NCBI RefSeq assembly: GCF_000970325.1
Contig: NZ_CP009518.1
Coordinates: forward strand, 1,922,001-1,986,000
Origin: Methanococcoides methylutens MM1
Lineage (GTDB): Archaea; Halobacteriota; Methanosarcinia; Methanosarcinales; Methanosarcinaceae
DNA length: 64,000 bases
Direction: 5' to 3'
Part shown: positions 26,757 through 28,143 of the stretch, one piece after another
Layout: each line of letters begins with the position of its first letter
How positions within the stretch are numbered: position 1 is the first letter of the stretch
Made by a program: the position numbers and the translations under genes
Notes under the pieces: generated by a model
Told to the model about the DNA's origin: nothing
Databases searched by the model: none
Seen by the model: only the letters and a program-made list of their open reading frames with translations

Positions 26757-26854
26757 GGAGCATAGTATTCATACATCTTTTTTAAGCTATTTGGTAAAGG
26801 CAAAAGTGACCAAAACAGCCAGACCATAGAAAAGTATAAATATTCATGAGTTAT

Positions 26855-26863
26855 CTATATAGG
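26855..26863 (+). promoter_or_regulatory. TATA box for the zinc-ribbon transcript
   Basis: CTATATAGG; a second TATA-like element, AGTATAAATA, lies about 25 bp upstream. The closer one would start transcription near 26885, right at the structured leader. Confidence 0.4.
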
Positions 26864-26888
26864 TTTACTGTCCCGTCAAAGAATGGGG

Positions 26889-26988
26889 GGCCACAATGTC
26901 AATATCGACATCATGTGGGGATATGAGCGTGTTTGGGGAGTGGGAAACTCACACACACTTATGCTTATCATTGTAGCCATATCCCCGC
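26889..26988 (+). ncRNA. Structured 5' leader or small RNA with two competing stems
   Basis: Hairpin A pairs CCACA-ATGTC (26891-26900) with GACAT-TGTGG (26907-26918, 2-nt bulge). A long-range stem pairs 26915-26925 (GTGGGGATATG) with 26978-26988 (CATATCCCCGC), 11 bp with one G-U. Inside that, GTGT/ACAC (26929-26932, 26951-26954) and GAGT/ACTC (26938-26941, 26947-26950) form an inner hairpin. Bases 26915-26918 are used by both hairpin A and the long stem, so the two folds exclude each other. It ends 34 bp before a 45-codon zinc-ribbon gene. No known riboswitch class recognised. A 26-codon ORF (26896-26976) overlaps it and is probably accidental. Confidence 0.45.
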
Positions 26989-27022
26989 AATGCAAAACAT
27001 ATTCAAAAAGGGGAAAAGTAGT

Positions 27023-27160
27023 ATGAAAACATTACACAAGTGTCCAAAATGTAGCTCAAGGCTGGAAATGAAAGGGGAAAACATACAGGTTTGCAATGTC
27101 TGCAAATACTGGACAGAAGCAGGGACTGCAAGGCTCGACTCGATAACAATTCTCGAGTGA
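27023..27160 (+). CDS. Tiny zinc-ribbon protein (45 aa)
   Basis: The protein is 45 residues: MKTLHKCPKCSSRLEM then VCNVCKYW, i.e. two CxxC knuckles about 17 residues apart, enough for one zinc ribbon. The ATG at 27023 has GGGGAAAAG upstream; a longer frame starting at 26933 would run through the structured leader and is unlikely. Function unknown; short zinc ribbons in archaea often act in transcription or as protein adaptors. It is followed after 9 bp by another zinc-ribbon gene, so the two form an operon. Confidence 0.65.
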   Translation: MKTLHKCPKCSSRLEMKGENIQVCNVCKYWTEAGTARLDSITILE

Positions 27161-27169
27161 GGAGATACT

Positions 27170-27325
27170 GTGGGAAATATTACCATGAAATGCCACATGT
27201 GTGATGTGGACCTTAAAATAATGCGGATTGGCGATAATGCCATGTACTATTGTCAGAAATGTGGAAGAACAACCTCCATTGACTCTGCATACAACATTTC
27301 AGAACAATCCGCTTATACCGCCTGA
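27170..27325 (+). CDS. Tiny zinc-ribbon protein (51 aa), second of the pair
   Basis: Starts at GTG with GGAG 5 bp upstream. The 51-residue product has CHMC near the N-terminus and CQKCGR about 20 residues later, a single zinc ribbon, then a polar tail (SIDSAYNISEQSAYTA). It begins 9 bp after the first zinc-ribbon gene and its end overlaps the end of the convergent Toprim gene by 13 bp. Function unknown. Confidence 0.6.
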   Translation: MGNITMKCHMCDVDLKIMRIGDNAMYYCQKCGRTTSIDSAYNISEQSAYTA

Positions 27326-27936: not shown

Positions 27937-28143
27937 ATGGGATGCATCTTTTGTGGAAAAATTTGTGCAGAAGCAGGGGTCGAAGGCGAATATGGAGAAG
28001 AGGTCGCAGAAGGTCGTATTGTCGGACACACCCACATTTGCATGGACTGCCTGGCAGAACTAAAAGAAATACTTGACATCGAAGAAATCGAAAAGAAACT
28101 GGCTGAAACCGAATACGAGATCTTCGAAGAGGTCAGTCACTAA
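27937..28143 (+). CDS. Small protein with CxxC zinc knuckles (68 aa)
   Basis: Starts MGCIFCGKIC and later has ICMDCLAEL, giving two CxxC pairs about 30 residues apart that can bind one zinc. The rest is acidic with a helical C-terminus. A TATA-like element (TTATATATGG) lies around 27867-27876, with a 60-bp leader. No partner gene and no recognised family. Confidence 0.6.
   Translation: MGCIFCGKICAEAGVEGEYGEEVAEGRIVGHTHICMDCLAELKEILDIEEIEKKLAETEYEIFEEVSH

Follow-up and report, generated by a model that had tools for sequence, protein, structure and literature searches.

What is the role of the leader that precedes two very small zinc-ribbon genes in the methanogen Methanococcoides methylutens MM1? 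The locus lies in a 64-kb stretch of the chromosome (the window), where an earlier note had placed a structured leader with mutually exclusive stems ahead of genes for CxxC proteins of 45 and 51 residues, and had offered a metal or stress sensor, or else an independent small RNA, as explanations. Both open reading frames were found downstream of the leader, with two CxxC motifs each. ORF1 (27023-27160, plus strand) encodes a 45-aa zinc-ribbon protein (CPKC...CNVCKYWT..GTARLDSI), while ORF2 (27170-27325, plus strand), encoding a second protein of 51 aa or shorter, is probably co-transcribed with it. The resemblance of both products to zinc ribbons is weak (for ORF2, weak matches to zinc-ribbon models only), and neither matched a named family above its cut-off. 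ORF1 homologues occur at 66 loci, nearly all within the Methanosarcinaceae, and all 11 Methanococcoides genomes have the operon, two of them twice. In Methanosarcina this zinc-ribbon family occurs at several loci in a genome (L148-L201), and a Methanosarcina-like member is borne by a record titled Bacteroidales bacterium UBA1797 (L195), probably a mis-binned contig. The window encodes another small CxxC...CxxC protein (27937-28143, plus strand; 68 aa, no family match) just past a Toprim gene.

Two candidate TATA boxes precede the leader on the plus strand (26835-26861), TATAAATA at 26835-26842 and TATATA at 26856-26861, and when the leaders of the 11 Methanococcoides genomes are aligned, conserved AT-rich boxes coincide in position; judged from these boxes, the leader transcript would start near 26865 or 26885. 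The alternative pairing that had been proposed is borne out in the window sequence: GUGG at 26915-26918 can pair either with CCAC at 26891-26894, within a 10-bp local hairpin (26891-26918, plus strand), or with 26985-26988, within a 12-bp long stem (26914-26925/26978-26989, plus strand), and a smaller hairpin is indeed nested inside the 26914-26989 stem. Taken as a single sequence, the window leader has a fold only slightly better than chance would give (z = -2.35; 3 of 200 shuffles did equally well), and the opposite strand folds equally well (z = -2.65). Both stems are intact (12/12 and 10/10 pairs) only in the window leader and its 98%-identical twin within the clade nearest the window. The six other Methanococcoides leaders of this clade retain 4-7 of the 12 pairs of the long stem and 4-6 of the 10 pairs of the local hairpin, so that in relatives the stems vary without compensation, which is what the earlier note had said would count against its switch. 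Since the stems are restricted to one species pair, a metal or stress sensor built of them is unsupported. The leader had also been said to fit no known riboswitch class, and a search of Rfam 15, all riboswitch classes included, returned no gathering-level match to it even with permissive filters; the sole match in the Rfam 15 scan of the window was a tRNA.

Conservation resides instead in the inner hairpin (26929-26954, plus strand), GUGU-UUGGG-GAGU-GGGAA-ACUC-ACAC, which exposes a G-rich loop and of whose 9 pairs 8-9 persist in each of the eight sequences compared from the clade nearest the window. Its loop, UUUGGGGAGUGGG (26932-26944), is present in all 13 leaders of the 11 Methanococcoides genomes, in sense orientation and upstream of ORF1 in every copy, including both copies of the operon in each of the two genomes where it is duplicated (G001 and G007). 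The loop is near-invariant across both Methanococcoides clades while the flanking leader diverges. Zinc-ribbon leaders outside Methanococcoides are without the motif, except for one weaker, structured example, leader L143 of a sister genus, which has the related hairpin GCGUGU-UGGGGAGUAAA-ACACGC. A G-quadruplex was considered for the motif and set aside, the Methanococcoides copies having just one pair of G-tracts.

A stand-alone hairpin gene, equipped with a TATA box of its own, has as its loop the reverse complement of the leader loop, CCCACUCCCCAAA. Over its 50-90 nt, the hairpin combines a GC-rich stem of 8-12 bp with a U-rich tract and a loop rich in C (..CUUUUU..ACCCCCACUCCCCAA..). A small seeded model with realignment led to a covariance model of 27 members. 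The alignment made with this model keeps 95.3% of pairs, and both partners have changed at 9 of the 10 pairs; the covariation score was reached by none of 500 shuffles, and slid-register controls collapse. Because such an alignment is fitted to the structure and hence biased towards it, the independent swapped-arm test matters: among 21 distinct stems 96% of pairs are kept, compared with 45% when the arms are swapped.

The two strands of the hairpins differ in their signals. Among 43 hairpins, whose kinship inflates the counts, a TATA core lies 15-50 nt upstream of the stem in 40 on the C-rich strand versus 8 on the other, and a T-run follows the stem in 28 versus 5. We therefore read the family as sRNA genes with a C-rich loop that start near the stem, with transcription presumably on the C-rich strand. 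The members are stand-alone genes with their own promoter and a conserved RNA structure, as is characteristic of trans-encoded sRNAs, and their covariation, distribution and promoter placement make it very probable that they form a real RNA gene family. Representative sRNA loci had no gathering-level match in Rfam 15, even with permissive filters, and literature searches with the loop sequence turned up nothing on archaea. A conserved peptide, suggested by the frame ERVWGVG in several copies, was rejected on account of stops and frame breaks seen by eye in other copies and of arms that covary as RNA; a same-sense paralogous structure common to the leader and the stand-alone hairpins was ruled out by the strand tests. 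Thus the earlier description of a structured leader holds insofar as a conserved structured RNA element precedes the zinc-ribbon genes, although this element is the inner hairpin and not the switch stems; the suggestion of an independent small RNA came close in spirit, except that the sRNA gene lies elsewhere and its sequence is complementary to the leader.

Of 186 genomes of the order searched with the covariance model, 175 carry the family, including 117 of the 118 of high quality, at 1-17 copies per genome. Across the class Methanosarcinia, family f7 (probably Methanotrichaceae) included, 163 of 171 genomes were positive at a stricter cut-off, and directly inspected sequences confirm the sRNA pattern from Methanosarcina to f7. 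In a phylum-wide draw of 391 genomes all 112 positives belong to this class; the roughly 276 genomes from outside it yielded no family member, a result that doubles as a false-positive control. Copy number is 2-4 per genome in Methanococcoides and 3-6 in Methanolobus; four members are carried, for example, by genome G122 (C1:399461-399537(+), 2721952-2722006(-), 2751039-2751100(+) and 2877685-2877737(+)). Up to 17 copies per genome were seen in genus g19 (G093, G089, G071, G069) of family f5, which is probably Methanoperedenaceae (ANME-2d). Locus L064 of genus g11 holds three tandem members on the minus strand (1452, 1921 and 2513), about 500 bp apart and with divergent loops of 80-105 nt. Many copies in Methanolobus (g4; L213, L220, L221, L222, L224 and others) have a palindrome-like TCATCATNATGATGA just upstream of the TATA box, about 50-60 nt before the hairpin, possibly an operator; a strict pattern for this palindrome matched just 1 of 78 family members.

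The M. methylutens genome carries two copies, sRNA-A (G000:C1:26486-26544, minus strand) and sRNA-B (G000:C1:2053465-2053519, plus strand), both of which are conserved in all 11 Methanococcoides genomes. Several of these have sRNA-B two or three times over, with some 0.2-1 kb between copies (loci L121-L135; G009:C9:39135-40621, G002:C3:329145-330339, G003:C12:24597-25322, G001:C1:1751389-1751810 and G007:C14:628715-629125). The sequence GGGGAGTGGG occurs five times in the 2,394,636-bp chromosome, namely in the two sRNA genes, in the window leader and at two coding sites. Within the leader, the candidate pairing site GAGCGUGUUUGGGGAGUGGG (26925-26944, plus strand) could pair with sRNA-A at 19 of its 20 positions and with sRNA-B over 12 contiguous bases. 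A best-helix search over both strands of the 64-kb window (128 kb of strand) returned the leader as the best contiguous partner of each sRNA, with 14 bp for sRNA-A (-31.3 kcal/mol versus -21.4 for the next site) and 12 bp for sRNA-B (-28.1 versus -23.9 kcal/mol).

Predicted dimer gains point the same way. The window site gains -15.7 kcal/mol with sRNA-A and -10.2 with sRNA-B, against about -1.4 for shuffles. Over the 13 leaders, and with intramolecular structure included, the gain is -11 to -22 kcal/mol for sRNA-A, against -1 to -5 for shuffled leaders, and -6 to -17 for sRNA-B, and these leaders exceed nearly all shuffles. Some of the substitutions that separate the leaders of the two clades leave pairing intact (C to U and A to G, facing G and U); the sRNA loops are too constant within the genus for matching changes on their side to be seen.

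Taking direct regulation and titration together, we consider it likely that the leader is a pairing partner of the sRNA. The single best reading, which on these sequence data we hold to be somewhat more probable than its competitors combined, is that a class-wide trans-acting sRNA pairs through its loop with the leader hairpin and directly regulates the zinc-ribbon operon. The sRNA would be expressed from its own TATA promoter and would meet the leader RNA in the cell; in Methanococcoides its C-rich loop and the G-rich loop of the leader would then initiate a loop-loop contact that extends into the 3' arm of the sRNA, to about 20 bp. In this species such pairing would also open the 26914-26989 stem. 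The mRNA could be stabilised, or its ribosome-binding region exposed or blocked, so that pairing may alter the stability or the translation of the zinc-ribbon message; alternatively, the sRNA itself could be titrated.

Were titration the main effect, the leader hairpin would act as a sponge that frees the other targets of the sRNA and the operon itself would not be regulated. A free-loop, near-perfect complement that is the strongest site in the window would serve this purpose well, as would its position, some 80 nt before the ORF1 start and away from the ORF1 ribosome-binding site. Stoichiometry speaks against it: a genome has 2-4 sRNA genes but a single copy of the leader, or two in the case of G001 and G007. 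Moreover, the sRNA loop can pair over 11 nt with the ribosome-binding region of ORF1 itself in the related clade (GGUGGGGGUAU), which suits direct regulation; a paralogue in a sister genus carries GGGGAGUG at this region. We regard titration as the principal function as unlikely, although it is the strongest of the rival explanations.

Somewhat less probable still is that the leader element has no leader role and is a degenerate inverted copy of the sRNA, or an overlapping sRNA gene on the minus strand. The reverse complement of the window leader gives the only match of the sRNA model in the window, with 8 of 10 stem positions standard, and some other leaders have comparable weak matches. This match is weak (15.5 bits, E 0.34), and the similarity of leader and sRNA could partly reflect descent from an inverted copy. 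Scores of 13-17 bits nevertheless fall far below the 25-79 bits of real members, no minus-strand TATA box was seen by eye at the right distance in clade 1, the plus-strand boxes by contrast are conserved, and decay would not hold a motif near-invariant amid a diverging leader.

The conservation might instead be owed to a protein bound to the G-rich loop hairpin, or to a ligand-binding leader, the match to the sRNA being secondary. A small hairpin with an invariant loop does also resemble the site of an RNA-binding protein, and the downstream genes encode zinc ribbons; yet chance is an unlikely source of an exact 12-14 nt complement to two separate sRNA genes of the same genome, both conserved across the class, and we give this explanation little weight. 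A metal- or stress-sensing switch of mutually exclusive stems is very improbable. This species and its near-identical relative do have both stems, but in six other leaders of the genus both are disrupted with no compensating changes, and the leader has no Rfam match.

Direct regulation of the operon by the sRNA thus stands as our preferred account of the leader, and it would describe only part of what the family does: as the sRNA spans the class and the leader site belongs to one genus, the zinc-ribbon leader can be no more than one of several partners, and the main job of the family would lie elsewhere. The loop is not a simple mimic of the anti-Shine-Dalgarno sequence, as it forms just four contiguous pairs with the canonical Shine-Dalgarno GGAGGUGAU. 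Some individual G-rich sites do fit the loop over 7-11 nt. We tentatively propose, while judging it rather less than an even chance, that one sRNA family serves as a core and almost universal post-transcriptional regulator of the Methanosarcinia, in methanogens and ANME-2 methane oxidisers alike, with G-rich leaders and ribosome-binding regions as the targets of its invariant C-rich loop, and with a dedicated loop-loop partner in the zinc-ribbon leader of Methanococcoides.

Very few archaeal sRNAs are known to be conserved beyond the genus. A trans-encoded sRNA with its target is a known kind of system, and it is the breadth of conservation that is unusual for Archaea: practically all good Methanosarcinia genomes carry the family, and its several copies diverge from one another while keeping the loop invariant. 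The zinc-ribbon leader supplies a concrete candidate partner and with it a testable sRNA-mRNA pair in culturable methanogens, and the covariance model could be used to annotate hundreds of genomes, including those of Methanosarcina species with established genetics. In the sources searched the family is apparently undescribed as a family, and it is absent from Rfam; it differs from sRNA154 of Methanosarcina mazei in lacking the promoter operator of that RNA, and its members may coincide with sRNA41 or with conserved sRNAs of Methanolobus psychrophilus R15.

In Firmicutes, the short and conserved sRNAs of the RsaE/RoxS type use unpaired C-rich motifs to pair with G-rich ribosome-binding regions. 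Those RNAs are bacterial and differ in structure and sequence, and the present loci have no match in Rfam. Closer to home, M. mazei sRNA154 is an intergenic RNA with two stem-loops and the NrpR operator GGTA-N6-TACC in its promoter; it has a loop complementary to ribosome-binding regions, and by pairing with leaders and start regions it stabilises some mRNAs and blocks others (Prasse et al. 2017, as reviewed in PMC5867862). The new family likewise consists of intergenic archaeal RNAs, whose loop could pair with leaders or start regions; identity with sRNA154 was rejected, as the operator GGTA-N6-TACC occurs in none of the 78 members within 120 nt upstream. The intergenic sRNA41 of M. mazei is proposed to mask the ribosome-binding sites of polycistronic mRNAs (Buddeweg et al., as reviewed in PMC5867862), and the C-rich loop of the new family, compared by description only, would suit such masking. 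Nine highly conserved, cold-induced sRNAs are described for Methanolobus psychrophilus R15 (PMC5378194); on a comparison by description only, they resemble the present family in being multi-copy and conserved, and the same genus carries the new family as well.
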